64,000 bases of DNA from positions 1 through 64,000 of the forward strand of contig NZ_JAQYWB010000012.1 of assembly GCF_030145185.1 (NCBI RefSeq). Reading direction: 5' to 3'. A program made the position numbers and the translations under genes. Positions 2,025 through 24,967 of the stretch are shown here, piece by piece. Below the pieces are notes generated by a model, which ran no database searches, was not told where the DNA came from, and saw nothing but the letters and a program-made list of their open reading frames with translations. The stretch comes from Desulfoluna sp. GTDB taxonomy: Bacteria; Desulfobacterota; Desulfobacteria; Desulfobacterales; Desulfolunaceae. Within the stretch, counting starts at the first letter, position 1. Every line of letters begins with the position of its first letter.

Positions 2025-3760
2025 GCTTTCACCTCTTTCATCATCTGTATCAGGGTCTGCACCTTTTCTTTCCGGCGTCCTTCACTCTCGGCTCCACCGC
2101 CGTATCGTGCAGCCTCCACGCTGTCTAAAATCGCCACACAACGCTCTGCGGCTTCGGCGGTGCCCCCCACCCCTGCGACAATCCTGCGAATGTCCTCACC
2201 CGTCATGCCCTCCACGGGCCGGCCGGCAAGAGCGCCCATCACAGCGGCAAGGGCGCTGTGGAGTTTCGCATAAAACAACTCACCCTCTCCCACGGCCTTC
2301 TCCGCCTCTTTCACCTGCAGGATCGCTTTCCGGGCAAGTTTTTGCCCCACGCTTAAATCCCGGGTCAACCGTTTCAGAGCAAAGGCGATCACGAGAAACA
2401 GCCCCAGAGGGCCGCCCAACCAGGCCAGAAAACGAGACATCCCCATGGGCGCCTCATGGCGGACGGCGTCGGCGTCCATTTTCAAAGGCAGAATATCCTG
2501 CCCCTTCAGGCGCACCTCTTTTTTGGCCAGTCCAAAAGTCGTTCCCGGCCCACTGGATTGAAATACCTCCACCTGCTCGGCGGCCTTGTTTTCCAGGACC
2601 TCAACACGAAGGGGGGCGGAGCGCTGGGAGCGATACGTTTTCGTGGACGGATCGAACCACACCAGGGTCACAGGAGGAATCTCCACCGTTCCGGCTTTAA
2701 GGGGTACGATGGCTGTTTTAAAGGTCTTTTTCCCCTGCCAGCCTTCCGGCCCCAGGGCAATCTCCTCCACGGGGGTGTCGCCGTAATGCTTCATTCCCTC
2801 AGGCAGAGAGATCTGTGGGGCCGCGGCGTCCCGGATATTTCCCCGGCCTTCGAGGGTCAGGGTCAAGGTGACAGGGTCCCCGGCCTTGACACTCTCTTTT
2901 TCGATAGAGGCGGTGAGAGAAAACGTTCCCACAAGCCCTGAAAAAGGGGCATCACCGGAGTAAACCGGCAGGGGTTTGACCTCCATGGCCACCCCCTCTG
3001 TGGTGAGCTGTTTCTGCTCCATCACGTTGCGGCTTCCGAAAAAATCGTCAAACACAGGATCCGACGAACGACGGGAACGACCCGTGACAATGGCCACGGA
3101 GAGGCTCGCCGGCGCGATGGCAAGGGGACCCGGTTTCTGGGGAATCAACAGCTCGTTCACTTCGTGAATGGCGTAGCGTCGTCCGTTGATCACCTGCTCA
3201 AAGGCCCGGCCTTCGCCGAGTTCTTCGGCGGAGAACCCATCAAAGGCGGGCTTTCCAAGGCGGGCATTCTGAAAACGGGCCGCCGTTTGAAACCGAAAGG
3301 TCCACACCACCTGTTCCCCCACATAAGGAGACGGATTGGATATGTCCGCGGTGACCCGCCAGGGCTGATCCACGGAGGACGAGGCGCTCCGTTCGTCCAC
3401 CCGAATGCTTACAGGCTGGGTATGGTAAGCCTTCCTGCCATCCATAACGGCAATGGCTGGGATAACAAACTCACCGGCCTGGAGAGGGACCAACAGATAA
3501 AGACTCTCCACCTCCCGGGTGGTTCTCCCGTTGATGATCTGCATCCGGGAGCTGGTCCCCCGGGGTGACACACGAAAGTTCGCCATCTCCGGCATCTCAA
3601 CCCTCGGATCATCGAAATCGGCCATCACCCTCAGGGTCAGGGATTCCCCAAGCCTCAAGCGGGTGGTGTCCACCACTGCCCTTGCGCCCTCAGCACACAC
3701 AGCTGAGGCGCTCAGTCCACAGAGAAGGACCATCCCAAGAATGGATAACATGCGCTTCAT
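2021..3760 (-). CDS. batD: BatD, oxygen-tolerance family protein
   Basis: A 579-residue BatD (BatD_2/oxygen tolerance) protein. It has a signal peptide (about 1-23), a large periplasmic region of beta-rich repeats (about 25-420; blocks such as VGEQVVWTFRFQT and VKAGDPVTLTLTLEGRGNI recur in this family), one membrane helix near 447-465 and a cytoplasmic C-terminal helical domain. Length is normal for the family. It overlaps batE by four bases and starts one base left of the batB/C stop, so the genes form one transcript. The role in oxygen or envelope-stress tolerance is by family name; direct function is not established. Confidence 0.85.
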   Translation of the reverse strand: MKRMLSILGMVLLCGLSASAVCAEGARAVVDTTRLRLGESLTLRVMADFDDPRVEMPEMANFRVSPRGTSSRMQIINGRTTREVESLYLLVPLQAGEFVIPAIAVMDGRKAYHTQPVSIRVDERSASSSVDQPWRVTADISNPSPYVGEQVVWTFRFQTAARFQNARLGKPAFDGFSAEELGEGRAFEQVINGRRYAIHEVNELLIPQKPGPLAIAPASLSVAIVTGRSRRSSDPVFDDFFGSRNVMEQKQLTTEGVAMEVKPLPVYSGDAPFSGLVGTFSLTASIEKESVKAGDPVTLTLTLEGRGNIRDAAAPQISLPEGMKHYGDTPVEEIALGPEGWQGKKTFKTAIVPLKAGTVEIPPVTLVWFDPSTKTYRSQRSAPLRVEVLENKAAEQVEVFQSSGPGTTFGLAKKEVRLKGQDILPLKMDADAVRHEAPMGMSRFLAWLGGPLGLFLVIAFALKRLTRDLSVGQKLARKAILQVKEAEKAVGEGELFYAKLHSALAAVMGALAGRPVEGMTGEDIRRIVAGVGGTAEAAERCVAILDSVEAARYGGGAESEGRRKEKVQTLIQMMKEVKA

Positions 3761-5620
3761 CTACCAGTCCTTTTCCACACGTCTTTTTTCGGTGCGTCGC
3801 ATCATGACGCCGCCGGGTTTGTCTTTCAATCGATTGAGGGCAGAGGCGGCCTGCTGCATCTCCTCATCTCCGGGTTTCTTGTCCATGGGTTCGCCCTGGG
3901 CAGCCTGGGATTGCTTCGCATCATCGGGTTGCCCCCCGGCCTCTTCTCCCGCTTCGGGTGACGGTGGGGGAGGCTGCTGTCCACTCTTTTCATCTTGAGC
4001 GTCATCCCCTCCGGAAGATTTCTGCTGATCCTGTGGGCTCTGCGGGTCTTGCTTGTCCTGCTCACCCGGATCATTCTTCGAATCCTGACTCTGCGGCTGA
4101 TCTCCGTCCTTATTCTGAGCCCCTTCTTTTTTCTGACCCTTGTCCTTCGAGTCTTTCTGCTCTCCGTCGCCTTTCTGATCCTTGTTCTGCTCCTGCTGCT
4201 TTTTCATCTCTTCGAGCTTTTTCTTTGCAAAAGCGAGGTTCTCCGTAAGCTTTTTATCGGCAGGGGTCTCTTTAAGAAGACGTTCCCAGCTTTCAATGGC
4301 CTGCTTCACCTCCCCCTTTTTAAATTGACTGTTGCCCAGATTGTAGATCCCTTTATTTTGCAGGCCCTTCCCCGGAGCAGCAGCGGCGCGCTCAAAACTC
4401 CGGGCCGCCTCCTCAAATTTCCCCAGGCGATAGTAAGCGGTGCCGATGTTAAAATCAATCTCCGGGTTGTCGGGGTCATCGAGTTGTCCTTCGATGAAGT
4501 GGGTCAAAGCGGCTTCGTAATCCCCCGATTCATAAGCCGTCACCCCTTTCTCCATAGAAGATGCCAAATCAAAGGCACGGGCGGGCTGCGGGAGGAAAAG
4601 ACAAAGCGCCAGCAGCAAAACAGTCGCCCCGTTTCTCCGGGCATCCCCAAGCCCCAGATAGAATAAAAGACAGAGGATAGACAGCCCCAGAAGCCACTGG
4701 TAACGATTTTCCCACACTTTCTTGCGGGAACTCTCAAGGGACCTGGCCTCCATGGTCTTGCGGATCCCCTGGGTATAAATGGCCTCTAAGTCCATGTCGC
4801 CTGCAACCGAACGCACAAAACTGCCGCCGGTCACCGCGGCCATGCGTTTCAGGGTTCCGGCGTCCAGCTTGGAGAGAAGGATACTGCCGTCCCTGTTTTT
4901 CTTAAAGCCACCGGACGGATCGGGAACCGGCACGCCCTCTTTGCTTCCCACGCCGATGGTGAAGACTTTAACCCCCATCTCAGCTGCTTTTTTGGCCACC
5001 TCTTCGGGGTTGCCCCCGGTACTCTCCCCGTCGGTGATGAGAATCACCGCTTTGTCGGTGGCGTCCTCAGCCTTAAAAGCCTTCATGGAGACGGTGAGCG
5101 CCCCGGCGAGATCTGTCCCTCCCACGGGAAGATAATCCGGGGACAACGCCTCCAGAAAGATATTAAAGGAGCCGTAGTCCAGAGTAAGAGGACACTGAAG
5201 AAAGGCTTCCCCGGCAAAGGCCACCAAGCCGATGCGATCCCCCTCCAGCATGGCCAGCAGGTCGATAATTTCCCGTTTGGCCCTCTCCAGGCGAGAAGGA
5301 TTCACATCCTCGGCCAGCATGCTTCGGGAGCAGTCCAGGGCCACCACGATGTCCACCCCTTTTCTCTCCACGTCCTGCCAGACATACCCGTAGCGTGGAC
5401 CGGCCAATGCGAGAATCATAAAAAGCACCGAGCAGACCATCAGCACGGCTTTCACGCGACGCCTGCCCGCTGTCTTTTCAGGAAGCACGGAGCCCCGACT
5501 TTTTTCGGAGACAAAAGAAGTAAGAATCCGCTTGCGACGGGCACCCCCCCAGGCAAACAAAGCCGCCACGGCAGGCACCAACCAGATCAGATAAAGCATA
5601 TGAAGTTCAGCAAAGGTCAT
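3761..5620 (-). CDS. batB: BatB-BatC fusion: VWA domain plus TPR and acidic tail
   Basis: A 619-residue protein that joins two products usually made separately. Two N-terminal membrane helices (about 8-24 and 58-76) lead into a von Willebrand A domain with an intact MIDAS motif, DCSRS at 96-100, and the ITDGEST metal loop. A third helix follows near 310-325, another hydrophobic stretch near 333-350, then three TPR units (about 358-470). The last 130 residues are low-complexity, rich in Gln, Lys, Asp and Pro. In many Bat operons the VWA protein (BatB) and TPR protein (BatC) are separate genes. The stop and ATG overlap the neighbours, which indicates tight co-expression. Confidence 0.85.
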   Translation of the reverse strand: MTFAELHMLYLIWLVPAVAALFAWGGARRKRILTSFVSEKSRGSVLPEKTAGRRRVKAVLMVCSVLFMILALAGPRYGYVWQDVERKGVDIVVALDCSRSMLAEDVNPSRLERAKREIIDLLAMLEGDRIGLVAFAGEAFLQCPLTLDYGSFNIFLEALSPDYLPVGGTDLAGALTVSMKAFKAEDATDKAVILITDGESTGGNPEEVAKKAAEMGVKVFTIGVGSKEGVPVPDPSGGFKKNRDGSILLSKLDAGTLKRMAAVTGGSFVRSVAGDMDLEAIYTQGIRKTMEARSLESSRKKVWENRYQWLLGLSILCLLFYLGLGDARRNGATVLLLALCLFLPQPARAFDLASSMEKGVTAYESGDYEAALTHFIEGQLDDPDNPEIDFNIGTAYYRLGKFEEAARSFERAAAAPGKGLQNKGIYNLGNSQFKKGEVKQAIESWERLLKETPADKKLTENLAFAKKKLEEMKKQQEQNKDQKGDGEQKDSKDKGQKKEGAQNKDGDQPQSQDSKNDPGEQDKQDPQSPQDQQKSSGGDDAQDEKSGQQPPPPSPEAGEEAGGQPDDAKQSQAAQGEPMDKKPGDEEMQQAASALNRLKDKPGGVMMRRTEKRRVEKDW

Positions 5621-11704: not shown

Positions 11705-13087
11705 TTATCGGTGATGAATCACAATCATCTTTTCCTGGGTCATCTCCCTCATGGTGTAACCGATCCCTCCCACCCCCAATCCACTCTGCCGCCTGCCGCC
11801 GAAGGGCATCCAGTCCACCCGGAAGGCCGTGTGATCGTTGATCATGACGGCGGAGGCGTCCAAGTGACGGGCCACCCCCAGGGCGGTATCGATATCCTGG
11901 GTAAAGACCGACGCCTGAAAGGCCATCTCCACATGATTGGCCCGTTGAACCGCTTCGTCCATGGACTCGCAGGGGTAGACGCAGATCACCGGTCCGAAGA
12001 TCTCATCGGTAGAGACCCGCACCGTGTCGGGAGGGTTCATCAGAATCGTGGGGGCATAGGCAGATTCCGCCACCTTGACACCACCACAGAGCACCAGCCC
12101 GCCAGCTTTCACGGCTTCATGCACCCATCCATGCACCCGATCCGCCTCCCCGGAACGAATCAAAGGGCCCACATCGGTGCTGGCGTCGGTGGGATCTCCC
12201 ACGGTAAGGGTCGAAGCGGCCTGGGCCATCTTTGCCGCCAGCTCATCGGCGATGCCCTTCGCTGCAAAGACACGCTGAACCGAGACGCACACCTGACCTG
12301 CGTGATAAAACCCCCCTTTCATCAAAGGAGGTACCATAAGATCCAGATCGGCGTCCTCCCCCACGATCACCGGGGCCACACCCCCATGTTCCAAGCCGCA
12401 TCGGGTTCCGGGAGCGAGCTTGCGCCTCAAATCCCACCCCACCCCGGCCGAACCGATAAAGCTGAAATAAGCCACACGCGCATCCGTGGCCAGGGCCTCG
12501 GCATCGGATCGACCAAGGAGCACCACCTGACACCAGGCGTCGGGAAGGCCATTTTTGTGCAGCAGCTCCACCAACGCGAGACAGGAGAGAGGGGTCTTTG
12601 TGGCGGGTTTCACGATGACAGGGCAGCCGACCGCCACGGCCGGAATCACCTGGTGTACAATAAGATTTAACGGATGATTGAACGCGCTGATGGCTGCCAC
12701 CACGCCGATGGGTTCCCGTGTTGTGACGGCAAGGCGCTTGGACGAGGCCGGGTTCAACCCCATGGGAATTTCCTGTCCCCCCATCCTGCCCATCTCCTCA
12801 GCGGCCAGCTCAATACCGCCGATGGCCCGGGTCACCTCAACCCTGGCATCCAGCAAGGGCTTTCCCCCCTCCTTTGCGATGGTGAGGGCAAACGCTTCCT
12901 GATTGAGCCTGAGGTCCGCTGCGGTTTTCAGCAGAATCTCCTTGCGTTCCCATACAGGCAGCCAGGCCTTTCCATTCTTAAAGACACCCGTGGCTCGTTT
13001 CAATACATCGTCCACGACCTCGGCACCCCCCAGATGAAGTGTTTCCAAAATACCGCCATCCCACGGGGATCGCACTTCCACTCTCAT
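11705..13087 (-). CDS. NAD(P)-dependent aldehyde dehydrogenase
   Basis: A 460-residue aldehyde dehydrogenase with the full catalytic set: Asn137 in FNHPLN, Glu233 in LEHGG and the nucleophile Cys267 in GQVCVSVQ. The substrate-side residues do not point to one aldehyde. It lies downstream of the ThDP-enzyme gene, in the same direction but 363 bases away, with repeats in the gap. A simple reading is that the ThDP enzyme makes an aldehyde from a 2-oxoacid and this enzyme oxidises it. GGAGG precedes the ATG. Confidence 0.85.
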   Translation of the reverse strand: MRVEVRSPWDGGILETLHLGGAEVVDDVLKRATGVFKNGKAWLPVWERKEILLKTAADLRLNQEAFALTIAKEGGKPLLDARVEVTRAIGGIELAAEEMGRMGGQEIPMGLNPASSKRLAVTTREPIGVVAAISAFNHPLNLIVHQVIPAVAVGCPVIVKPATKTPLSCLALVELLHKNGLPDAWCQVVLLGRSDAEALATDARVAYFSFIGSAGVGWDLRRKLAPGTRCGLEHGGVAPVIVGEDADLDLMVPPLMKGGFYHAGQVCVSVQRVFAAKGIADELAAKMAQAASTLTVGDPTDASTDVGPLIRSGEADRVHGWVHEAVKAGGLVLCGGVKVAESAYAPTILMNPPDTVRVSTDEIFGPVICVYPCESMDEAVQRANHVEMAFQASVFTQDIDTALGVARHLDASAVMINDHTAFRVDWMPFGGRRQSGLGVGGIGYTMREMTQEKMIVIHHR

Positions 13088-13182
13088 AACATCCTCCTTA
13101 CGGTAATGTTGGGTGTTCGGTTCATGGCACAGCCAATTAAATAGACCCGCAACGTGGACTCAAGACGTTACTCAAACGGAGC

Positions 13183-13432
13183 GCCGCACTCCGGTGCGGC
13201 TTTTTGGCCGGGGCCATGCCCTGGCTTGAACCACCCTCTCTAAAAAGAACTCGCCACACACACGTTCTCTCATCCCAACCAATGATTTTCTATCACCGGT
13301 ATCGCCTAACTGCCGCGGCGGAGCACGGCGCGCCCGGAAAACAACACCGTTGATAATTTGTAGGAAGGTGGGGCACACCAAAAACCAGCACCGCCTGAGG
13401 ATTAAACGATGAAGGTGCCACGACGCCCGCCC
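13183..13432. repeat. Composite intergenic repeat
   Basis: The gap 13088-13450 contains no gene. It has the hairpin GCCGCAC/GTGCGGC (13184-13200) and then the CGCCACACACACGTTCT...GGCGGAGCACGGCGCGCCCGG module (13250-13340) shared with 6842-6931 and 40668-40751. A third part, CCGCCTGAGGATTAAAC...GCCACGACGCC (13392-13427), recurs inverted at 40756-40790. So the same modules are joined in different orders at different sites. Confidence 0.7.
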
Positions 13433-13450
13433 TATCCTCTATCCCCGTCC

Positions 13451-15115
13451 CTATAACAGGCACACCCTGGCCGCCAACTCATCAATGAGCACCCGCTGAT
13501 TCTCGGAATAATCCACCGGCACCTCAATCAGATGAACGCCCCCCTCCTGAAAACACCGCTCCATGAGGGGAAGAAACCCCTCCGCGCTCTCCACACGGTG
13601 TCCACCCGCCCCATAGGCCCTCCCGTAAAGGACAAAATCAGGGTTCCCATACTCCAGCCCCCAGTCGGCAAACCCCAGCATGGCCTGCTTCCAGCGAATC
13701 ATCCCGTAGGCATTGTCTCTTAAAACCAGCACCACCAGATTGAGTCCCAGCCGCACAGCGGTCTCCATCTCCTGGGAGTTCATCATAAAACCTCCGTCCC
13801 CGCACACAGCCATCACCCGCCGCGTGGGATTGAGCATGGCCGCCGCCATGGCCGACGGGAGCCCCGCCCCCATGGTGGCCAGGGCATTATCCAGAAGAAT
13901 GGTGTTGTCTTTGTTGGTTCGGTAATTTCGGGCAAACCATAACTTGTAAATGCCGTTATCAAGGGCGACGATACCGTCGGCGGGAAGCACCTTACGAACA
14001 TCTGCCACCACGCGCTGCGGCAGCAACGGATAACGCGGAGAGTCTACATCCATGGTGATATGCTTGAGGACCTCCTGGCGGATTTTCATAAAATAGGAGA
14101 AGTCATGATGTTCCGAGACCACAAGTTGTTCGATCAACCGCCGAAAGGTATGGCCGATGTCCCCCACCACATCGTGTTGGGGAAAATAAACGGTGTCCAC
14201 CTCTGCCGGGCTGTAGTTGACATGGATCACCCTCTTGCCCCCGTGCCGCATGAAAAATGGAGGTTTTTCCACCACATCGTGACCGGCGTTGATCACCAGA
14301 TCCGCTCGATCGATGGCGCAATGCAGATAATCATTGTCGGAAAGAGCCGCGGTGCCAAGATATAAAGGGTGGGCACCCCCGATGACCCCCTTGCCCATCT
14401 GGGTGTTAAAAAATGGAATACCGGTCTTCTCCACAAAAGCTTTCAGGGGTTCGATCACCTGCTTCCGGTTGGTCCCCGCCCCAATCAGAAGAAGCGGTGA
14501 GACCGCCTCCTGAATCATCTCTGCCGCCCGGGTCACCGAAGACTCGGAGGCACAATTCAGGCAGGGCTCCCGCCGCGGGATAAGATGCCAGTCTTCGATC
14601 ATTTCGGACGCGATATCCTCGGGAAGTTCCAGATGCACCGGTCCGGGACGCTCCTCTTCGGCCAGCCGGAAGGCTTCCCGCACCAGCGCTGGAACGGTGT
14701 TGCCGTGGACAATCTGACGGGTAAATTTGGTCAGAGGCCGCATCATGCTCACCACATCCACCATCTGAAAGCGCCCCTGCTTGCTTCGAGTGATGGGCTT
14801 CTGACCGGTAATCATCACCATGGGCATGGCGCCGAGACGGGCATAGGCGGCGCCGGTCACCAGATTCGTCGCGCCGGGTCCCAGGGTGGCAAGGCACACC
14901 CCCGCCCGACCGGTGAGCCGACCATACGTCGCAGCCATAAAGGCGGCGGCCTGCTCATGACGGGTCAACACCAACGCAATGGATGAGGTACGGAGGGACT
15001 CCAGAAAATCAAGATTTTCCTCACCGGGCACGCCAAACACATGCCGTACCCCCTCTTCTTCGAGGGCTTTCACCAAAAGATCCGACGTCTTCACGGGGGG
15101 ATGGGAAGGGGACAT
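13451..15115 (-). CDS. Acetolactate-synthase-like ThDP-dependent enzyme
   Basis: A 554-residue enzyme of the acetohydroxyacid synthase/pyruvate oxidase family. It has the cofactor-activating Glu54 (TRHEQAAAF), the central FAD/acyl-binding-type domain, and the ThDP motif GDGGFMMN...RDN in the last third. The length matches catabolic acetolactate synthase. I start it at 15115 after GGAGAG; upstream codons in frame encode a non-conserved Phe-rich stretch. No small regulatory subunit gene is present, so catabolic acetolactate formation or decarboxylation of some 2-oxoacid is more likely than branched-chain synthesis. The neighbouring aldehyde dehydrogenase and sulfite exporter make a sulfonate or 2-oxoacid pathway possible (inference). 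Confidence 0.8.
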   Translation of the reverse strand: MSPSHPPVKTSDLLVKALEEEGVRHVFGVPGEENLDFLESLRTSSIALVLTRHEQAAAFMAATYGRLTGRAGVCLATLGPGATNLVTGAAYARLGAMPMVMITGQKPITRSKQGRFQMVDVVSMMRPLTKFTRQIVHGNTVPALVREAFRLAEEERPGPVHLELPEDIASEMIEDWHLIPRREPCLNCASESSVTRAAEMIQEAVSPLLLIGAGTNRKQVIEPLKAFVEKTGIPFFNTQMGKGVIGGAHPLYLGTAALSDNDYLHCAIDRADLVINAGHDVVEKPPFFMRHGGKRVIHVNYSPAEVDTVYFPQHDVVGDIGHTFRRLIEQLVVSEHHDFSYFMKIRQEVLKHITMDVDSPRYPLLPQRVVADVRKVLPADGIVALDNGIYKLWFARNYRTNKDNTILLDNALATMGAGLPSAMAAAMLNPTRRVMAVCGDGGFMMNSQEMETAVRLGLNLVVLVLRDNAYGMIRWKQAMLGFADWGLEYGNPDFVLYGRAYGAGGHRVESAEGFLPLMERCFQEGGVHLIEVPVDYSENQRVLIDELAARVCLL

Positions 15116-15430
15116 GGGACTCTCCACAGAAAATCCATCAGGGCCTCCGGAGACAATAAAAAAAGGCTCCAGGTGAAAACAAACAGCCACTGACACAATC
15201 CGGGCATCACAAAATGGAGGGAATAGAAAGGACTCAAGGTCTGACATAGAAAAAAACGAAGAAACGAATACAAAATAAATTGTAACTATTCAGCTCGATA
15301 AAAAGCCTCCGGCGGCAATCTTAGCTGTTTTATTTAATTTTCGATCCTAAGCGGCGATGGCGCGTGGGCGGAAGGAGAAGGAGAAGGAGAAGGAGCGGAT
15401 GATCCGCCACCTTTCGTTAAATTACCATAG

Positions 15431-15467
15431 TTATCCTGTCAGAACAAGCAAGGTTCCGACAGGATAA
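15431..15467. terminator. Long palindrome between lysR and the ThDP gene
   Basis: TTATCCTGTC and GACAGGATAA, with inner GAAC/GTTC, form a strong hairpin. There is no T-run, so it may be a factor-aided terminator or an operator. The same gap (15116-15519) also holds a partial CCTCCGGCGGC repeat at 15305 and a GGAGAA tandem run at 15373-15393, but no gene. Confidence 0.5.
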
Positions 15468-15519
15468 CAGGCTATATTTCAAGGGAAATAAATTTACAGA
15501 GGTTCTTCCCCCCCCCCTA

Positions 15520-16416
15520 TCAGCGGGACATGCCGTCCCAGCTTCGGGTAAACTCGATAAAGGTCGTGATCAGGGAGCTCATAAATTTGTTTTTATGCCA
15601 GACGGTGTAAAACGACCGCGAAAAGCAATAGCCTTCCACCGGCAACCGAAACAGCAAGCCGTACTTCAACTCTTTCTGTACGCTGTAGCGGGAGAGGCAG
15701 GAGACCGTGTCCCTGTTAGAAAGGATAGACTTCACCGCCCCGGTATGATCCAGCTCCATGAAGACATTCAAGGACTTTGACAAATCGCCCAAATGGTTCA
15801 TGAAGGTCTCCCGGGTGCCGGACCCCTTTTCACGCAGAACCCAACGCTTACTGAGGAGTTCCTCCATGCGATAAGGCTCTTCACGAACCAGGGACGCATC
15901 GCCGGTGACAACATAGAGTTCATCCTTGCCCAGAACCTCGTGCTGAACGTCCAGACCGTCGTACTCCCCTTCAATGAATCCCATATCCACACGACCGTTT
16001 TCAATCAGGGACACCACCTCATGGGTGTTGCCTGTATCCATCTTGAAACTCACCCCGTCATGGGACTGCATGAAGCTGTAGAAGATCTTCGGTATAATGT
16101 AGTTGGCAATGGAAGAGCTCACCCCCACACGAATCTCCCCATGCAGATGCTCATCCCTGAAAATGGACTCCGCCTCTTTCAGGCCCAGAACGAAATGTTC
16201 CACCCGGCCAAGGAAAAGACGTCCGTTTTCGTTCAACACAATTTTTTTGTTGATGCGATCAAAAAGCCGGGTCTCCAGAATCTCTTCCAGAGACTTGATG
16301 GCCATGGATACAGCCGACTGAGTCAGTCCGACCTCTTTGCCCACTTCACCGATGTGAGGTCTTTTGGACAGAGCCAAAAAGAGCTCCAGCTGCCTTAATG
16401 TCATGCGCATGTGCAT
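15520..16416 (-). CDS. yeiE: LysR-family regulator, YeiE-like
   Basis: A 298-residue LysR regulator with an N-terminal winged helix-turn-helix (MTLRQLELFLALSK...LTQSAVSMAIKSLEE) and a substrate-binding C-terminal half. The helix-turn-helix and the ENGRLFL stretch resemble E. coli YeiE, which senses sulfite and sits divergently to yeiH. Here too a yeiH-type gene starts on the opposite strand 534 bases away. The ATG at 16416 follows GGAGG. The shared spacer 16417-16950 is AT-rich in part and is the likely control region, though I cannot mark a LysR box with confidence. Expected effectors: sulfite or a sulfonate-derived signal (inference from the pair). Confidence 0.75.
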   Translation of the reverse strand: MHMRMTLRQLELFLALSKRPHIGEVGKEVGLTQSAVSMAIKSLEEILETRLFDRINKKIVLNENGRLFLGRVEHFVLGLKEAESIFRDEHLHGEIRVGVSSSIANYIIPKIFYSFMQSHDGVSFKMDTGNTHEVVSLIENGRVDMGFIEGEYDGLDVQHEVLGKDELYVVTGDASLVREEPYRMEELLSKRWVLREKGSGTRETFMNHLGDLSKSLNVFMELDHTGAVKSILSNRDTVSCLSRYSVQKELKYGLLFRLPVEGYCFSRSFYTVWHKNKFMSSLITTFIEFTRSWDGMSR

Positions 16417-16950
16417 GGTAACGTTGCCTCCGTCTATAAAACCGGCAAAAAAACCGGTATTTTCTCTATTCTTTGCGGTGCTGTCCACAAGCAATTCATG
16501 GCAACACGTTGGATTTTAACTCAATAGCCATTTTGAATCAAATTTTCTTATGAGCTTTTAAAATACAATGAATTTGACTTATCATAGCCCTATTCATAAA
16601 ACAAGCGCATCTCCTTCACGGAGTGGAACAAAAAAATGCAGTCTATCTCTCCTCTGCACCGGGCAGCGCGACCCATAAACGGTCCGAACCGCTCGATACA
16701 CGAGACACAGGATGTTGTTTCACCCCATTTGAGGACACAAATTCCGGCCTGGAACTTCGTGTGAAAGGCATATAAAAAAAACCAGACTCAAGAAGGCCTC
16801 CCACAAATGGAGAAAGAACTCTAATCCTGCGTCATATCAGGGACAGGAGAGCTGTATTCTCACTTTGGCGAGAGACTGAAAAACGAATCGTCAACGATTC
16901 AGGCTTTAAAAACGGACTGCCACCGGCAGGACACAAAGGAGCGGTAACCG
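16417..16950. promoter_or_regulatory. Divergent control region of yeiE/yeiH pair
   Basis: No gene is visible in these 534 bases. The stretch next to lysR (16510-16620) is AT-rich, as expected for a LysR-controlled divergent promoter. I could not identify a convincing T-N11-A site or a -35/-10 pair. Confidence 0.4.
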
Positions 16951-18646: not shown

Positions 18647-19423
18647 TCAGACAATCAGGGCCTGAATTCTCTGCATGTAATCATTTAAATTTGCGGCGTA
18701 CTCGGGAGAGCCCTCCACCGTCACCATCTGTCTCCCCAATGCCTCAACAAACTCCACATCCCCCATGAGCACCGGAAGCGCCCCCGCAATCCCATTAAAA
18801 CAAATATGAACAAAGGGACGCCTTCGGGTGTACATCCCCCGGCCGGCCTTGGTCTTACCAGCCTTCACCCGGACGTAAGCGGCGATCTCTTCGCCCTCCA
18901 CAGACATCTGATAAATGCGGTCAGGCTGCTTGCCCGTCCATCGAGACATCTCCGGATCCCCCCCTTTGTTGTACTGGCTCAAGGCGGTGGTGATCATATA
19001 AAGGATCATCTTGACCTTCAGGCGCTGCCTCTCCTCCTGCTTGGGGCGGGCATCGGGCATCAGAATCTTCATGGCCAGAAGCAGAGTGACGATCTTCAGG
19101 ATCAATCCGGGTCGTTTCCATCCACTGATGCCTGGAATAACGGGTTTCCCGGCCATAAAGGCGTTGAATTTATCGGCGCTCTTAAAACGGAACACCGCAT
19201 CCGGAGTCCCGCCCATGGCTGCATCCACAGAAAGTGCACCCGCCTCAAAGACCACGTCGGTCCCCAGGGGAGCCTCCTCACCCGCCACAGAAAAACGGAC
19301 CCTGGCCGTCACCCCGTCAAAGCGAGCCTGCATCTTCGGGTCATCCGTCACCACCACCTTCATCACGGGAAACAGGGCTTTCAATAAGATACGCGTTGCA
19401 AGCAGTGTTCTTTTTTCGCCCAT
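18647..19423 (-). CDS. SCP2-like sterol/lipid-binding protein, distal copy
   Basis: A 258-residue soluble protein and last gene of the operon. Residues about 30-110 look like an SCP2 (sterol carrier protein 2) fold: a beta-rich start (VTARVRFSVAGEEAPLGTDVVFEAGAL) followed by DAVFRFKSADKFNAFMAGK, the usual SCP2 helix. The C-terminal half is helical and unassigned. It is distantly similar in layout and length to the first gene of the operon (22758-23525), which suggests an old duplication. The ATG lies two bases after the transketolase C-subunit stop, with GAGGTG overlapping that end. SCP2 domains bind acyl chains or sterols, hence my view that the pathway handles a lipid (inference). Confidence 0.6.
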   Translation of the reverse strand: MGEKRTLLATRILLKALFPVMKVVVTDDPKMQARFDGVTARVRFSVAGEEAPLGTDVVFEAGALSVDAAMGGTPDAVFRFKSADKFNAFMAGKPVIPGISGWKRPGLILKIVTLLLAMKILMPDARPKQEERQRLKVKMILYMITTALSQYNKGGDPEMSRWTGKQPDRIYQMSVEGEEIAAYVRVKAGKTKAGRGMYTRRRPFVHICFNGIAGALPVLMGDVEFVEALGRQMVTVEGSPEYAANLNDYMQRIQALIV

Positions 19424-19424
19424 A

Positions 19425-20441
19425 TCACACCTCATCTTCCCAATCTTCGTCCTCTTCAAAATCCCGCCCCATGACCTCCCGCACCTTTTCAATCATCCCG
19501 TTGGTGTCGAGTTTGTAATGGGCGTAAAGATCTTCGGGATACCCCACCAGCGAGAAGGCATCTGGCAAACCCACTTTTTCAAAGGCGCAGCCCGTGCCGC
19601 TCGCGGCAATCACATCCGCCACCGCGCTGCCCATCCCACCGTAAATGTTGTGTTCTTCAAAGGTGATAATACGACGGGTCTCAAGAACCGCCTTCATGAC
19701 AGCCGCCTCATCCAGGGGTTTGATCGTATGAAGATTCAGCACGCGCACGCTCAAGCCATCCTCTTCCTTCAAGACCCTGGCCGCTTCCGCCGCCTGAAGC
19801 ACCGTAACCCCGCAGCAAATCAGGGTGATGTCGGTGCCCTCACTCACGGTGACGGCCCGGCCGATCTGAAATCCATACGCCTCCGTGTCGTACCAGGTGG
19901 GCTCAAAGCCCCTTCCGACCCGAATATAAACCGGCCCGTCCCAATCCACACAAGCGCGGACCGCATTGGCCGTTTCAATGCCGTCGGCCGGAATAATCAC
20001 CGTCATGTTCGGAAAAGAACGCATGATCGCCACATCTTCCTGGGCGTTGTGGGTACTGCCCGCTGTGCCGAAGGAGATGCCGCCATGGGTGGCGATAATC
20101 TTGCAGTTCAGGTTCTGATAACAGATGTCCGTCCGCACCTGCTCACAGGCCCGCATGGAGGCAAAAGCCGCCATGGTGGAGACAAAGGGGGTCAACCCGG
20201 AAAGCGCCATGCCCGCAGCCACACCAAAGAGATTCTGCTCGGCAATGCCCACATTAAAAAACCGCTCCGGAAATTTCTCGCCGAAAATCCCGATCTTGGT
20301 GGACTTCGCCAGATCCGCCGTCAACCCAACCACATCGGCCCGCTCCTCGCCAATTTCACACAGCACGTGGCCATAAATTTCTGCCTGGGTCATGGAATTG
20401 GCATCGTACACGGTCCAGGTGGTTCCGGTCACTTCACTCAT
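19425..20441 (-). CDS. Transketolase, C-terminal subunit
   Basis: A 338-residue protein with the pyrimidine-binding and C-terminal domains of transketolase. The catalytic-Glu motif is NVGIAEQNL (about 83-91), and the GPVYIRVGRG stretch and a C-terminal Rossmann-like domain follow. The N-terminal half is encoded just upstream, 11 bases away, so the pair makes an alpha2beta2-like split transketolase. AAAGGAGG precedes the ATG. The C-terminal tail is unusually acidic (EEDEDWEDEV). Split transketolases are known in many anaerobes; here the neighbours suggest a dedicated rather than housekeeping role. Confidence 0.88.
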   Translation of the reverse strand: MSEVTGTTWTVYDANSMTQAEIYGHVLCEIGEERADVVGLTADLAKSTKIGIFGEKFPERFFNVGIAEQNLFGVAAGMALSGLTPFVSTMAAFASMRACEQVRTDICYQNLNCKIIATHGGISFGTAGSTHNAQEDVAIMRSFPNMTVIIPADGIETANAVRACVDWDGPVYIRVGRGFEPTWYDTEAYGFQIGRAVTVSEGTDITLICCGVTVLQAAEAARVLKEEDGLSVRVLNLHTIKPLDEAAVMKAVLETRRIITFEEHNIYGGMGSAVADVIAASGTGCAFEKVGLPDAFSLVGYPEDLYAHYKLDTNGMIEKVREVMGRDFEEDEDWEDEV

Positions 20442-20452
20442 CGCGTCCTCCT

Positions 20453-21295
20453 TTAGGCCTTACCGTACATGCGGTCCACAGATGCCCGGGCCTTCTCAGC
20501 CAGGGTCGAGTCGATACTGCCGTAATGCCACTTCACGTTGCCTTCCATGTAATCGATCCCCCGTCCTTTTTTCGTATGGGCGATGATCACACAGAGCCCC
20601 TTTTCGCCGGAGAGCGAGACGTCGATGGCCTCGGCCAGCGCGGCAAAGTCATGGCCGTCGACCTCCAGAACATGAAACCCAAAGGCCCGCCATTTATCGC
20701 TGAAAGGCTCCAGCGACATCACCTCTTCCGTGGCCCCGTCGATCATGTAGCCGTTTCGATCCACAAAGGTCACCAGGTTGGTCAGCCCGAAATGAGACGC
20801 CGACATGGCCGCTTCCCACACCGCCCCCTCGTTGCACTCCCCGTCCCCCAGAATGCAGTAAGTCTTCCACGTCTTCTTCTGTGCCCGTGCCCCCAAAGCC
20901 AGCCCCACGGCCATGGGCAAACCGTGCCCCAAAGACCCGGTGGAGGTATCCACACCGGTCACCTTGGACGCGTCCAGGTGCATCCCGAAAGGCGACCCGA
21001 ACTGATTGAAGGATTTCAACGTATCAAAATCAAAATACCCCCGGCGGGCAAGGACCGGAGCAATCCCCACGCCCCCGTGCCCCTTGCTCACCACCACCCG
21101 ATCCCGATCCGCCATCTCCGGCCGGTCCGCGTCGATGTTCAAATAATTAAAATAAAGAAGCACCAGAATATCCAGCATGCTGAGTGCCCCGCCGATATGG
21201 GCACCTCCCGCCCACACCGTCACGTCGATGATGTCGTGCCTGAGCTGCCAGGCCTGCTCTTGAAGCGCCCCGATTTCCGCATCGGTCAATGCCAT
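20453..21295 (-). CDS. Transketolase, N-terminal (ThDP-binding) subunit
   Basis: A 280-residue protein carrying the diphosphate-binding half of transketolase. It shows GGAHIGGALSMLDIL, VSKGHGG, GSLGHGLPMAVGLALGA and the ThDP motif GDGECNEG...NGY. The start at 21295 follows AAGGAGAG. Transketolase moves a two-carbon ketol unit (HOCH2-CO-) from a ketose to an aldehyde. The gene sits between the aminotransferase and the C-terminal subunit, with a 34-bp repeat in the 174-base gap before it. Confidence 0.88.
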   Translation of the reverse strand: MALTDAEIGALQEQAWQLRHDIIDVTVWAGGAHIGGALSMLDILVLLYFNYLNIDADRPEMADRDRVVVSKGHGGVGIAPVLARRGYFDFDTLKSFNQFGSPFGMHLDASKVTGVDTSTGSLGHGLPMAVGLALGARAQKKTWKTYCILGDGECNEGAVWEAAMSASHFGLTNLVTFVDRNGYMIDGATEEVMSLEPFSDKWRAFGFHVLEVDGHDFAALAEAIDVSLSGEKGLCVIIAHTKKGRGIDYMEGNVKWHYGSIDSTLAEKARASVDRMYGKA

Positions 21296-21324
21296 CGATT
21301 CTCTCCTTATCATTAGAAAAACAT

Positions 21325-21358
21325 GCCTCCGGCGGCAAGGTGAGCCACCTTGAAAGCG
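21325..21358. repeat. 34-bp CCTCCGGCGGCAAGGTG repeat
   Basis: Nearly identical to 6673-6708, 35034-35067 and 46145-46180, with an inner AAGGTG/CACCTT hairpin. It lies within the operon, between the aminotransferase and transketolase genes. Confidence 0.8.
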
Positions 21359-21469
21359 TTGTGCCGCAGCGCTTTGCCCCTCGTGCCTCGGGTCAAATCA
21401 CAGCGGTATTTTTTTAACCCTGAAAAAGCGAGAATAACCCATCCCGTGAACCTGGGGTGCAGCCCGCAT

Positions 21470-22729
21470 TCATGAAGCCTGCCGCCCCTGGGCTGCGGCC
21501 TCTTTGATGACCTGAAACGCCTCGTCACAGATTTCAAGGGTCCGGGCCACCACCTCCTCGTCGTGGGCGGTGGAAACAAACCAGTTGTGGTGGGAGGCAA
21601 GAAAAACACCCCTTTTTGTGCACTCCGCGCACCAGGCCTGATGGAGCATCCCACTGGGATCGTCGGTGAGGCGCACGTTGGGCATGGAGAGTTCACCGGT
21701 CACCTTAAGATGAAAGCCGTACCCGGCGGCCAGGGTCTCCATCTTCCCGAACAGGTTCCCCCCCTGCTTCAGCAACCATTCAGGGGCCTCCAGCCGCTTA
21801 AGCTCCCCCAGACAAGCCAGGGCCGCGGCCATGGGCATGGCCTGATACCAGTAACTGCCTGTATAAAAAACCTTGGCGGCCTCATTTTTCATGGTATCGG
21901 TGCCCATCAGGGCGGAGATGGGGTACCCGTTGGCCAGAGCCTTGCAATAGCAGACCAGATCCGGGGTAAACCCGTAATGCACGTGGGACCCCTGCATGTT
22001 GAGGCGAAAACCATGGCGGATGTCATCTAAAATCAAAACGATCCCCTCTTTTCTGCAGAGGGCCTCGATCTTCTGCCAATACCCGGCCTCGGGCAACTCG
22101 CTGTCGTAAAAGGTGGGGACATGGTAGGGGGTGGCGATAAATCCGGCCACATCCCCGGGATGTTCCGCGATCACCTGTTCAAAGGCCCCCACATCATTCC
22201 AGGGAATACGAAGGGTGTGGGCGTGATCCTCCGCCAGAACCCCAGGGTGCCCCAGGGCCTGCATCCAGGGAGCCACCCCATGATAACCGCCCTTAATGGC
22301 CACCATCTTCTTTCGCCCCGTGGCGCTTCGGGCCACCATGGTGGCATAGTTCGTCACATCCCCACCGTTCTTGGCAAAAAAAGCCCAGGCCATGGAGCCC
22401 ACCATGTCCACCAGAAACTCAGCCAATTCCACCATCTTCGGAGAAGCGCACATGGTCAGATCCGCTTCCCAGCTCTGACGCTGCGCCGCTTCATCCACCA
22501 CCGGATTTCCATACCCCAGAATCATAGGGCCATACCCGCACATGTAATCAATGAACTCATTGCCATCCACATCCCAAAACCGGGCCCCTTCCGACCGGGC
22601 TGCATAAATGGGATACGCCGAAGGAGGAATGTTCACCGCCGGGCTCATATGGCCCGGAACACCACAGGGGATCACCTTAACGGCCCGGTCAAATAGAGCC
22701 TGCGACTGCGCATAACGGTATGTGTCCAT
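21470..22729 (-). CDS. Class III PLP-dependent aminotransferase (glutamate-semialdehyde aminomutase-like)
   Basis: A 419-residue fold-type I PLP enzyme. Asp235 (LDDIRHGFR) and the Schiff-base Lys263 (CKALANGYP) are in place, and GGYHG lies near 147. The common LDEV is replaced by LDDI. Sequence style is closest to the glutamate-1-semialdehyde 2,1-aminomutase branch, which includes many enzymes that aminate ketones or sugar-like substrates. The ATG at 22729 follows GAGG; a GTG six bases earlier is possible. In this operon it could aminate the ketone formed by the split transketolase (inference). Confidence 0.82.
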   Translation of the reverse strand: MDTYRYAQSQALFDRAVKVIPCGVPGHMSPAVNIPPSAYPIYAARSEGARFWDVDGNEFIDYMCGYGPMILGYGNPVVDEAAQRQSWEADLTMCASPKMVELAEFLVDMVGSMAWAFFAKNGGDVTNYATMVARSATGRKKMVAIKGGYHGVAPWMQALGHPGVLAEDHAHTLRIPWNDVGAFEQVIAEHPGDVAGFIATPYHVPTFYDSELPEAGYWQKIEALCRKEGIVLILDDIRHGFRLNMQGSHVHYGFTPDLVCYCKALANGYPISALMGTDTMKNEAAKVFYTGSYWYQAMPMAAALACLGELKRLEAPEWLLKQGGNLFGKMETLAAGYGFHLKVTGELSMPNVRLTDDPSGMLHQAWCAECTKRGVFLASHHNWFVSTAHDEEVVARTLEICDEAFQVIKEAAAQGRQAS

Positions 22730-22757
22730 GGTCACCTCACATTTTGATGTGATATTT

Positions 22758-23525
22758 TCACCCTAAATAATGGGGGATGCGGTCCATCAGGAGGTTGACC
22801 GCTTCGATCATGGGGATTTTGCCTTTCATGGAGACATCCCCTTTCGCCAGGGCGGCGAAGGCATCGCATTTACCATTCATCAGGTCATTGGCCACGCCCA
22901 TGTCCCGAAAACTCATGACTGCCATGGGGTTTTCCGGGTTTGGCTTGCCCACAGCGTACCCTCCGTTCTCTTTGACAATGGACACAGACGGTCCGTTGGG
23001 AAGCACGCGAATGGAAAGGGTCCCCTCCGGCATGGAGGCGGCGTTAAGCCGGCCCATGGAATCCGTGGTGGCCAACTCACGCACGGCATAGGCGGCCACG
23101 CCCAGGTTAAGGCGGGTGTTGATTTCGCAAAAGGCGTCATCAGCAAGGAGGGCTTCATCAGGTTTCAAAAAATATTCGAGGCGATCGGTCAGCTTGGGGA
23201 ATTCTTTGGTGAGAAAGGAGAGACGGGTGAACCCTTTCAAGGGGATTGGAGAGGCTTTTCCGTCCATCATGCGATTGAGATGTCTGGCCGAAAGGAAAAA
23301 AAGGCGTACATCCGGTGCGTGGTGGACGCCTTCCCCGGCCCGGCATCGTCCGTTTTGAAATTCAAGGTAGAGCGCCGGCCCCCGAAGCACAGAAAACTGG
23401 AGGGTCACCTCCCACGATTTAATCAGCTCCGCCGCCTTGTCATCACACGCCACAAGGGTTTCGAGATTTCGCAAGACGGCATGGAGGTTGAGATTGGCTT
23501 TCACGCGCTGGTACTCCATGGACAT
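22758..23525 (-). CDS. SCP2-like lipid-binding protein, first gene of operon
   Basis: A 255-residue soluble protein. The middle part (about 45-100; ALYLEFQNGRCRAGEG...DVRLFFLSARHLNRMMDGK) has the SCP2 pattern of a beta-hairpin sheet followed by a helix. A second SCP2-like half may follow (about 165-250, TLSIRVLPNGPSVSIVKENG...VMSFRDMGVANDLMNGK...). It has GGAGGGG immediately before two close ATG codons (23525, 23519). It opens the leftward operon and lies opposite the TetR gene. The function is unknown; lipid or acyl-ligand binding is suggested by the fold. Confidence 0.6.
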   Translation of the reverse strand: MSMEYQRVKANLNLHAVLRNLETLVACDDKAAELIKSWEVTLQFSVLRGPALYLEFQNGRCRAGEGVHHAPDVRLFFLSARHLNRMMDGKASPIPLKGFTRLSFLTKEFPKLTDRLEYFLKPDEALLADDAFCEINTRLNLGVAAYAVRELATTDSMGRLNAASMPEGTLSIRVLPNGPSVSIVKENGGYAVGKPNPENPMAVMSFRDMGVANDLMNGKCDAFAALAKGDVSMKGKIPMIEAVNLLMDRIPHYLG

Positions 23526-23658
23526 ACCCCTCCTTTTTCAAAAAAGGTTGTCATCACCCATGGCTCCACCCAGACACATCTCCCATCTCAACATCGTCTT
23601 GGCAGAGAGGCTTTCGCCTGCCCGCCTTTACGTGGATACCGGGCCGTGCTACGCTATA

Positions 23659-23686
23659 GAGTGAGCAATCACTCACTGAGCAATCA
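23659..23686. promoter_or_regulatory. Probable TetR operator
   Basis: In the 246-base divergent spacer, GAGTGA-4-TCACTC (23659-23674) is a perfect inverted repeat, and TGAGCAATCA occurs twice in tandem (23662-23671 and 23677-23686). This is what a TetR-family site often looks like, and it lies between the SCP2 operon and tetR, so both may be controlled here. Confidence 0.6.
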
Positions 23687-23771: not shown

Positions 23772-24470
23772 ATGAAGCCAGCGTTTCCGGCATCCGACAT
23801 CATAGAAAAACTCGAAGAGACCCATTTCAAAACGGCCTTCGGAAAAATCCCCGTTGAAAAACGGGAACGCATCTTGAGGACCGCCGCCAAAGAGTTTGCA
23901 AAGCGGGGATTCTCATCGGCCAACATCAACGTCATCGCAAAAACCGCCGGCATCAGCATCGGCTCCATGTACAACTATTTTGCCTCCAAAGAGACCCTGT
24001 TTCTCACCTTAAACGACCTCAGCTACCATCTCATCGAAGCCATTCTGGACGCCACAGATCTTGAGGAGGGAACCCTCTTCGACAAGTTTGAGCGGCTGCT
24101 CAGAGCCGTGCAGGTCTACGCCCGCCTCTACCCTGAGTTCAACCAGATCTACCAGGAGCTCACATCAGAGGGGCTGTCCCACCTCTCCTGCCAGCTCTCC
24201 GGCAAGCTCGAAACCGTCACGGCACATTACTACCGCTCTCTTCTTCGAGAAGCACGGGATACGGGCCTCATCGCCTCTGATGTGGATGAATTCACCGCCG
24301 CCTTCTGCATGGACAACATCCTCGTGATGCTCCAATACGCCTACTCCTCCGAGTACTATTCACAGCGGATGAAAATTTTTGCAGGAGAAGACGCCCTTGA
24401 AAACGACGAAAAAATGATCCAGGGAATCATGACCTTTATCCGCAGAGCCCTGGGCCATCAGGAGGCATAA
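23772..24470 (+). CDS. TetR/AcrR-family transcriptional regulator
   Basis: A 232-residue regulator. A helix-turn-helix of the TetR type covers about 30-80 (RERILRTAAKEFAKRGFSSANINVIAKTAGISIGSMYNYFASKETLF), after an N-terminal extension of some 25 residues. The rest is the helical ligand domain. It is divergent from the SCP2/aminotransferase/transketolase operon, with a palindrome between them, so it is probably the local repressor. The ligand is not known; many TetR proteins with this layout respond to acyl-CoA or other hydrophobic compounds. Confidence 0.88.
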   Translation: MKPAFPASDIIEKLEETHFKTAFGKIPVEKRERILRTAAKEFAKRGFSSANINVIAKTAGISIGSMYNYFASKETLFLTLNDLSYHLIEAILDATDLEEGTLFDKFERLLRAVQVYARLYPEFNQIYQELTSEGLSHLSCQLSGKLETVTAHYYRSLLREARDTGLIASDVDEFTAAFCMDNILVMLQYAYSSEYYSQRMKIFAGEDALENDEKMIQGIMTFIRRALGHQEA

Positions 24471-24473
24471 AAA

Positions 24474-24957
24474 GGTGTGTGCAAGGCTTTGTTTGCCGGT
24501 TTGGGAACGGGTTGTGGCTGTATCCATCATGGAGGCAGAGCCTCCGGGAGGCATTCCCAAGCGGAGCTTGGGAACGAGGAAGTGTGAGACGATACAACCC
24601 GCGACACGCGACTCCTCCTCTCGCTCCCAGGCTCCGCCTGGGTGTGGGGTGTGCAAGGCTCTGCCTTGCCGGTGCGGGATGCGAAAGGGTGTGGATTAAT
24701 TTACAGGTTGTCGCGGCATCCACCATGGAGGCAGAGCCTCCGAGGGGCATTCCCAAGCGGAGCTTGGGAACGAGGACCTGTGAGATAGTGCCGCAGGTGA
24801 CGCGCGCCCCCCTCTCTCGCTCCCAGGCTCTGCCTGGGTGTGGCGTGTGCATGGCTCTGCCTTGCCGGTGTGGCGTGTGCATGGCTTTTTTATAATTGCC
24901 AGAGCGCAGCGACTCCTCGAACCAAGAACGAAGAACCAAGCACGAAGAACGCTTTTT
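24474..24957. repeat. REP cluster A (two units) with GAAGAACCAAGCACG tail
   Basis: The unit has four hairpins: GGAGGCAGAGCCTCC, CCCAAGCGGAGCTTGGG, CCCAGGCTCCGCCTGGG and GCAAGGCTCTGCCTTGC. Two units follow each other here, right after the tetR stop, and end in GAACCAAGAACGAAGAACCAAG (24920s). The same unit occurs near 37741-38000, 38690-39200 and 40430-40640. Weak frames across it are repeat-derived, not genes. Confidence 0.85.
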
Positions 24958-24967
24958 TAACGCCTTC

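Follow-up and report, generated by a model that had tools for sequence, protein, structure and literature searches.

What is the function of an operon in which a class III aminotransferase and a split transketolase are flanked by two SCP2-like proteins? An operon of this kind is found in a 64,000-nucleotide stretch of the genome of Desulfoluna sp. (contig NZ_JAQYWB010000012.1, positions 1 to 64,000; hereafter the window), where five co-directed genes, SCP2a, AT, TKN, TKC and SCP2b, lie opposite a gene encoding a TetR-family regulator. A previous interpretation of the locus, made from the nucleotide sequence alone, had recognized this arrangement, and all of the genes are present, with their families confirmed by Pfam and by fold. 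That sequence-only reading proposed an amino-diol lipid pathway and preferred the synthesis of a sphinganine-like base without serine palmitoyltransferase (SPT), with breakdown as an alternative. Here, we describe a comparative analysis of the five-gene unit (the module). The operon probably specifies the kinase-free breakdown of sphingoid bases, long-chain 2-amino-1,3-diols, under the control of a TetR protein that would act at a conserved operator.

In the proposed pathway, AT would deaminate the base at C2 with pyruvate as acceptor, leaving the 1,3-dihydroxy-2-ketone HOCH2-CO-CHOH-R and alanine. Pyruvate would be regenerated by an alanine dehydrogenase, which in several lineages is linked to the module or co-regulated with it. 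The TKN/TKC transketolase would cut the C2-C3 bond and pass the two-carbon unit from thiamine diphosphate (ThDP) to an aldose phosphate, so that C1 and C2 would enter the pentose phosphate pathway and the remainder would be released as a fatty aldehyde. Oxidation of the aldehyde would then yield a fatty acid, a step that a class 3 aldehyde dehydrogenase (ALDH) encoded next to the module would perform in some lineages. SCP2a and SCP2b, probably paired, would keep hold of the chain while exposing its head group to the soluble enzymes.

The sphingoid-like class of substrate is well supported by the kinship of AT with the fumonisin-degrading aminotransferase FumI, by changes in the transketolase pocket and, above all, by the presence of the operator at genes for ceramidase, FadL and alanine dehydrogenase. 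Breakdown, rather than synthesis, is the most likely direction. We lean, if only slightly, toward a complete phosphorylation-free anaerobic pathway comprising ceramidase, uptake by FadL and a major facilitator superfamily (MFS) protein, SCP2a and SCP2b, AT, a transketolase with an emptied pocket, and one sphingoid-sensing TetR protein. The parts belong to known families and the catabolism of sphingoid bases is a known process; it is the route by transamination and transketolase that is most likely new. Among the papers listed by a literature search conducted mostly outside the subscription journals, none links transketolase or this gene set to sphingoid-base breakdown.

Organization and distribution of the module

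The features of the locus, in window coordinates, are as follows.

22758..23525, minus strand: SCP2a, first gene of the operon, with two tandem SCP2 domains
21470..22735, minus strand: AT, a FumI-like class III pyridoxal phosphate (PLP) aminotransferase; likely start, the ATG at 22729
20453..21295, minus strand: TKN, ThDP-binding N-terminal subunit of the split transketolase (Pfam, PDB, residues)
19425..20441, minus strand: TKC, C-terminal subunit of the split transketolase (Pfam, PDB, residues)
18647 to about 19435, minus strand: SCP2b, a distant full-length paralogue of SCP2a with two SCP2 domains (model, fold match, hhalign)
23658..23675, minus strand: putative TetR operator TGAGTGA-N4-TCACTCT, one mismatch from the consensus TGAGTGA-N4-TCACTCA
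23772..24470, plus strand: TetR-family regulator, divergent from the operon (Pfam TetR_N, 6.7e-14)

The likeliest start of TKN is at 21295, preceded by an AAGGAGAG; that of SCP2b is near 19435, so that this gene overlaps the TKC end. The gap of about 170 bases between AT and TKN contains a repeated element (21315-21400), further copies of which lie near 6.7, 35.0, 40.9 and 46.1 kb of the window.

Among the nearest genomes, the order SCP2a-AT-TKN-TKC-SCP2b is found in six besides the window (G001, G002, G003, G005, G021 and G011). In a scan of one genome per species, which includes these six carriers again and from which the best 80 of 338 loci were used, SCP2a precedes AT in 67 loci, with TKN following in 57, TKC in 53 and SCP2b in 50; all five genes stand in order in 48, and where the flanking sequence is long enough all five are present in 42 of 57. 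This gene order is not due to chance. The loci with all five genes belong to Desulfobacterota, Myxococcota, Spirochaetes, Hydrogenedentota, Nitrospiraceae, Bacteroidetes and one metagenome-assembled genome (MAG) assigned to Chlorobiota; because the latter sorts among Bacteroidota in the AT tree, we keep the count at at least six phyla. A homologue of the TetR gene (E <= 1e-20, coverage at least 80%) is present in 14 of the 80 loci.

In 14 genomes from outside the Gammaproteobacteria the AT locus is cut short or lacks transketolase genes. A module-type TKC, 63-86% identical, is encoded elsewhere in nine of these genomes (L059, L061, L062, L064, L067, L071, L084, L094 and L103) and is absent from the other five that were searched (L055, L057, L082, L093 and L106). 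At L098, L101, L106, L114, L115 and L117-L120, a module-clade AT directly follows a POT-type (oligopeptide:H+ symporter) gene, with no transketolase or SCP2 gene adjoining.

The operator and its linked genes

The palindrome that had been noticed between the TetR gene and SCP2a proved to be conserved: the consensus TGAGTGA-N4-TCACTCA occurs with at most two mismatches in all 12 homologous divergent TetR/SCP2a spacers, and shuffled versions of each spacer reach the same match in only 0-1 of 200 trials. In 20 further loci examined upstream of SCP2a, the operator was found with at most one mismatch in five (L046, L058, L059, L061 and L067) and with at most three in two (L074 and L085), and was not found in 13.

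A genome-wide search allowing one mismatch, in 19 carriers of which most had been selected for a site in the module promoter, returned 52 sites, compared with two for the reversed pattern. Nineteen of the sites lie in module promoters, 12 precede other linked genes, and 21 have no assigned link. Among the 58 nearest genomes there are 11 sites in seven carriers and 11 in 51 non-carriers, compared with three for the reversed pattern, and the only module-free genome with an exact site is G015.

An exact operator lies approximately 440 bases before the longest frame of a full neutral ceramidase with both Pfam domains in D. limicola, where a divergent gene is on the far side, and another lies about 120 bases before a ceramidase that is likewise full, with both domains, in a Desulfobacterium MAG. 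In G064 and G065, a site with one mismatch precedes an operon encoding a protein of unknown function, an MFS protein and a FadL-type protein (MFS scanned in one copy and FadL in the other). Alanine dehydrogenase genes are preceded by exact sites in G073 and G078, at 85 and 125 bases, and by a site with one mismatch, at 25 bases, in L063 of G075. The unlinked TKN-TKC pairs of G109 and G110 have a site with one mismatch at 21 bases, and no site with at most one mismatch was found at the unlinked TKCs of G109:C217 and G113:C65. Finally, SPT-like genes follow a site with one mismatch in G073, G078 and G109; SPT is their best model, at 506-515 bits against a cut-off of 640.

Two further families adjoin the operator. 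A secreted-looking protein is encoded immediately downstream of an exact operator in two Spirochaetes-type genomes (L252 3025-4014, L246 3240-3461 and L247 2299-3303); the L252 copy has no Pfam match, and its context makes the family a candidate lipid amidase. In two genomes (L254 1964-3010 and L249 1665-2711), the operator separates the SPT-like gene from a divergent gene for a 349-aa protein, whose L254 copy likewise has no Pfam match.

The module-free genome G015 encodes a TetR protein 53% identical to that of the window, and two operators there precede genes for a PLP enzyme of alanine-racemase fold, a GMC oxidoreductase and an ALDH (L270, G015:C243:61000-70000, 1-5251). By analogy, this gene set could be an oxidative sphingosine route. 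A sphingosine route proposed for Pseudomonas aeruginosa runs through an oxidoreductase and a PLP enzyme resembling threonine aldolase (PMC3900636), and the G015 set appears much like this two-step scheme. The pairing of such a TetR protein and its operators with different enzymes suggests that regulators of this kind may control one or the other of two routes.

The aminotransferase is related to FumI

AT contains an Aminotran_3 domain (Pfam, 3.6e-36), and its best match among solved structures is the aminopentol aminotransferase FumI (6hbs, 6.9e-95), as against 9.4e-47 for the best glutamate-1-semialdehyde aminomutase. These scores and a phylogenetic tree both place AT closer to FumI than to HemL. 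In the tree, which was built from 101 sequences by a quick method, has long branches and is used for its main splits alone, the module ATs and their relatives form a clade of 75 rows (support 98) that adjoins the FumI group and stands apart from the HemL-like rows. AT does not fall inside the FumI clade, in which FumI groups with five plasmid-borne ATs (support 100). The AT of the window shares 87-89% identity with those of three named Desulfoluna.

FumI is reported to act on hydrolysed fumonisin B1, an analogue of sphinganine, whose 2-amino group it passes to pyruvate to leave a 2-keto-3-hydroxy product (PMC2933618), and its activity is described as independent of oxygen (PMC10204369). Plasmids of Agrobacterium and Shinella carry FumI-like ATs near a gene for a ThDP-type alpha-ketoacid dehydrogenase, and the combination of an AT with a ThDP enzyme acting on the resulting acyloin may be a recurring pairing.

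The transketolase pocket has lost polar contacts

TKN matches Transketolase_N (Pfam, 1.9e-37) and PDB entry 6yak (4.3e-70), and TKC matches Transket_pyr (6.7e-42), Transketolase_C (3.2e-26) and PDB entry 6yaj (6.9e-78). An ordinary housekeeping function for this enzyme was rejected, because the same genome encodes a separate full-length transketolase and a DXS-like protein.

Catalytic residues are retained in the module enzymes. In 51 TKC sequences (the window protein and 50 from the 80 loci, with coverage of at least 80% and no stop), the equivalents of S385, E411, H461, H473 and R520 of the Escherichia coli enzyme are conserved throughout, as are the equivalents of the active-site histidines H26, H66, H100 and H261 in all 55 TKN sequences. 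The position of D469, in contrast, is occupied by Ala in 47 TKCs and Gly in four and by Asp in none, and the preceding Glu is lost too. The R91 equivalent in TKN is Asn in 54 of 55 sequences, and that of R358 is lost from 36 of the 51 TKCs; in the window the three positions are Ala127 (D469), Asn98 (R91, numbering of P0003) and Ala20 (R358). Human, Carboxydothermus hydrogenoformans and the organism's own housekeeping transketolases all retain both the R91 and D469 equivalents. As these two residues are encoded on separate genes in the module, both sides of the pocket have changed together. A second TKC set, partly repeating the same genomes, has Ala at the D469 position in all 18 module-type rows, while the 29 more distant transketolase-like rows have Asp in 22, including the two nearest (45-46% identity), and Leu or Asn in seven. 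The split-transketolase-like proteins with Leu or Asn at this position are found at L132-L135, L144, L203 and L146.

The phosphate contacts of transketolase are R358, S385, H461 and R520, and D469 contacts the hydroxyl that adjoins the bond to be cleaved. If a 2-keto sphingoid base has no 4-hydroxyl, this group would be missing, and the retained phosphate contacts would suit an aldose phosphate as acceptor. The pocket changes remove polar contacts and support a lipid-type substrate. In E. coli transketolase, for which S385 is also named, R91 and D469 are reported to form a salt bridge that is broken by D469T, a change that was part of laboratory evolution towards non-polar aldehydes (PMC5073344).

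Both flanking proteins have SCP2 folds

The SCP2 assignment of the flanking proteins, on which the sequence-only reading depended, holds for both. SCP2a scores above the Pfam SCP2 cut-off (4e-9, 37.2 bits) and SCP2b slightly below it (20.4 bits against a curated 21.3), and the predicted structures (pLDDT 94.6 for SCP2a and 91.6 for SCP2b) each consist of two tandem SCP2 domains. Over 111 aligned residues, the models match human SCP-2L (1ikt) with Z 10.3 and an rmsd of 2.9 for SCP2a and Z 12.0 and an rmsd of 2.5 for SCP2b. The two proteins have no BLASTP match to each other and are homologous over their full length by hhalign (probability 99.6, 248 columns).

Genes adjoining the module

Alanine dehydrogenase (above the NCBIfam cut-off) is encoded in five of the 80 loci, behind the TetR gene and on the same strand in L047, L048 and L063 and just before SCP2a in L057 and L073; in G033 it follows AT. 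A class 3 ALDH adjoins the module in four of the 80 (L046, L108, L111 and L113), and for the L108 protein, the sole copy compared with solved structures, human fatty aldehyde dehydrogenase is the second-best match (3.6e-125). A FadL-type gene directly follows SCP2b in L077, and a cyclic-nucleotide-binding regulator is encoded near the module in six loci. We scanned 70 of 165 listed neighbour genes and two genes of L106, with simple longest frames as gene calls, and no Pfam family recurred in more than two of these 72 neighbours. The module stands largely alone, save for the TetR, alanine dehydrogenase, class 3 ALDH and cyclic-nucleotide-binding regulator genes and, in three loci, xylulokinase.

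Elsewhere in the window, an acetolactate-synthase-like ThDP enzyme (above the NCBIfam cut-off), an ALDH and a YeiE-like LysR gene occupy 11705-16494, and the ThDP enzyme and LysR gene recur in related Desulfoluna loci. This ALDH (11705-13087), approximately 6 kb from the operon, was rejected as a member of the system: its best models are lactaldehyde or succinate-semialdehyde dehydrogenase, under their cut-offs, and it joined the class 3 cluster by single linkage only. A second dispersed repeat (24480-24960) has many copies in the window, most at 37.7-40.6 kb and 51-55 kb. A role in hopanoid or aminobacteriohopanetriol metabolism was likewise rejected, as squalene-hopene cyclase matches occur in two of 50 carriers, both partial, and not in the genome of the window.

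Weighing the proposed breakdown pathway

Several observations weigh against the breakdown of sphingoid bases as the function of the operon. The genome of the window has no neutral-ceramidase match, and chance probably accounts for the two other operator sites found there with one mismatch, so that the evidence for the regulon comes from relatives. A strong ceramidase match (E < 1e-100) is found in five genomes and the operator accompanies it in only two, being absent at up to two mismatches from the strong-match ceramidases of G069, G063 and G062. Ceramidase matches as a whole occur in 33 of 50 carriers, five of them strong, and we do not use this as a count because many are weak, partial and multi-copy. 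One-mismatch sites also occur, as given above, in module-free genomes. Of the 21 sites that have no assigned link, 19 were inspected together with their genes (all but those at G110:C40 and G069:C966): in Desulfoluna-type genomes three fall within the beginning of a peptidyl-tRNA-hydrolase-like frame, in G070 one immediately precedes a transhydrogenase gene, in G110 one is close to a gene resembling enoyl-CoA hydratase, and in Spirochaetes-type genomes several exact ones come before secreted or unknown proteins. As SPT is biosynthetic, its place under the operator in three genomes, two of them Spirochaetes, means that the regulon is not purely catabolic there.

The pocket and the gene set also have exceptions. 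R358 is retained in 15 of the 51 TKCs, and Leu or Asn in seven of the 29 distant rows indicates that the Asp at the D469 position has been lost in other transketolase-like families as well. Eight gammaproteobacterial genomes fall inside the AT clade without a module-type transketolase, their AT following a POT-type transporter gene, and G010 has TKN-TKC-SCP2b without a module-type AT; the unit is therefore not obligate.

The alternative that survives best, though an unlikely one, is that the module turns over or recycles sphingolipids made by the cell itself, with a single sensor balancing it against SPT, instead of consuming external lipids. The operator common to SPT-like genes and the module in G073, G078 and G109 would fit such a balance, but only for lineages that possess SPT, and a match of SPT strength was found in just ten of 50 carriers and in none of the 15 carriers of a phylum-wide sample. 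The ten carriers score at least 248 bits with the SPT query, 22 others reach only 206 bits or less, and 18 have no match to the superfamily at 1e-20; in the seven of these ten that were classified, SPT is the best model, always under its cut-off. In the phylum sample of 395 genomes, module-type TKC occurs in 15 and SPT-like genes in 58, with an overlap of zero against about two expected, so that avoidance of SPT is not significant and no positive association was found either.

We regard as somewhat more doubtful the possibility that the same chemistry acts on a different long-chain amino alcohol or amino-polyol. Plasmid-borne relatives of AT, with about 38-40% identity, lie beside genes for a sugar-acid kinase, a class II aldolase, acetoin-dehydrogenase-like proteins and peptide transport, which indicates that the AT family is not confined to lipids and is a further point against our proposal, and the module copy of G010, which lacks AT, adjoins an MFS gene and a gene resembling four-carbon acid-sugar kinases. 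The two SCP2-domain proteins, the operator-linked neutral ceramidase and FadL argue instead for a ceramide-derived lipid, and, on established chemistry, the unit left by a 1-deoxy base would be of acetyl type, which a transketolase pocket is not expected to accommodate.

Synthesis, the direction preferred by the sequence-only reading, now seems improbable. In that scheme the transketolase would join the two-carbon unit of a ketose phosphate to a fatty aldehyde, and AT would aminate the ketone to give a sphinganine-like base without SPT. Both enzymes are reversible in principle, and many carriers have no SPT-like match, among them the genome of the window, whose two matches to the SPT query are Kbl (above its cut-off) and BioF (best model, under its cut-off, a fragment). 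The expected co-occurrence with genomes lacking SPT thus holds for this genome and for the phylum sample and fails for the ten strongly matching carriers. The sharing of the operator by SPT-like genes in three genomes, xylulokinase (above the NCBIfam cut-off) beside the module in three of the 80 loci, all from Hydrogenedentota (L088, L096 and L104), and an acyltransferase upstream of it in L072 and L080 could also be read for synthesis, and these neighbours count against breakdown. However, ceramidase, FadL and MFS under the same operator point to uptake and hydrolysis, synthesis needs an aldehyde that a class 3 ALDH would use up, FumI is described as catabolic, with pyruvate as acceptor (PMC2933618), and no N-acyltransferase or acyl-CoA reductase family recurs among the 72 neighbours scanned. 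The earlier proposal is accordingly retained for the compound class, the aminotransferase and transketolase chemistry and the chain-holding role of SCP2, all of which draw on FumI, the pocket and the operator links, and is turned around in direction: breakdown is favoured, with ceramidase, FadL and alanine dehydrogenase under the operator.

A sugar, sulfonate or aminocyclitol pathway with a specialized split transketolase and incidental SCP2 proteins is very improbable. Specialized two-subunit transketolases exist in such pathways, and a sulfoquinovose transketolase pathway has reportedly been described, but the module transketolase has lost contacts to hydroxylated substrates, the SCP2 genes keep their flanking positions across phyla, and the scan of neighbours revealed no recurrent sulfonate family. 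The sugar or sulfonate neighbourhoods considered by the earlier interpretation amount to xylulokinase in three of the 80 loci and the acid-sugar-kinase-like gene beside G010, in a survey where no family exceeds two of 72.

Implications and comparison with known systems

If the full pathway proposed here is correct, its enzyme would be, to our knowledge, the first natural transketolase with a lipid substrate, and its pocket changes recall those made in the laboratory. The proposal can be tested directly, given the small size of the genes and the existence of several cultured carriers, and it would provide gene markers for sphingolipid degraders in metagenomes. Sphingolipids are described as abundant, and perhaps unusually stable, in the lipid pool of Black Sea sediment (PMC12619533). 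An oxygen- and kinase-independent pathway in anaerobes would explain how such a sediment pool is recycled.

Individual parts of the module have known counterparts. The split transketolase of C. hydrogenoformans (6yaj/6yak) has the same two-gene architecture and provides the nearest solved structures, but it retains the Arg/Asp pair and the Glu-Asp motif, both of which are missing from the module enzymes. UbiJ and the alkylsulfatase SdsA1 are structural matches in which bacterial SCP2 folds are tied to ubiquinone synthesis or alkyl chains; these entries align over a single SCP2 domain, whereas here two two-domain paralogues flank the operon.

Among pathways, the eukaryotic sphingosine kinase/sphingosine-1-phosphate lyase route requires phosphorylation and releases phosphoethanolamine, and its fatty aldehyde is oxidized by fatty aldehyde dehydrogenase, a class 3 ALDH. 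The proposed pathway resembles it in having a fatty aldehyde product open to oxidation by a class 3 ALDH, and differs in that no kinase is proposed, nitrogen would leave as alanine, and C1-C2 would pass into sugar phosphate. FumI, of fumonisin catabolism in Sphingopyxis sp. MTA144, belongs to the same wider class III aminotransferase clade as AT and, as proposed for AT, uses pyruvate to remove the amino group at C2 of a sphinganine analogue, with an alpha-hydroxyketone as product (PMC2933618); its substrate, by the name of the compound, has a methyl at C1, whereas AT falls in a clade of its own that is associated with genes for transketolase and SCP2. The closest regulatory parallel is the SphR regulon of P. 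aeruginosa (sphA, sphBCD and cerN), which likewise joins sphingosine sensing to a neutral ceramidase, an outer-membrane porin and base-metabolizing enzymes (PMC3900636). The product of sphingosine metabolism in that organism is described as still unknown in PMC11893366. SphR is an AraC-family regulator, and SphC and SphD are an oxidoreductase and an aldolase-like enzyme, as presented in PMC3900636, whereas the regulator adjacent to the module belongs to the TetR family (Pfam) and the corresponding enzymes are an aminotransferase and a transketolase.

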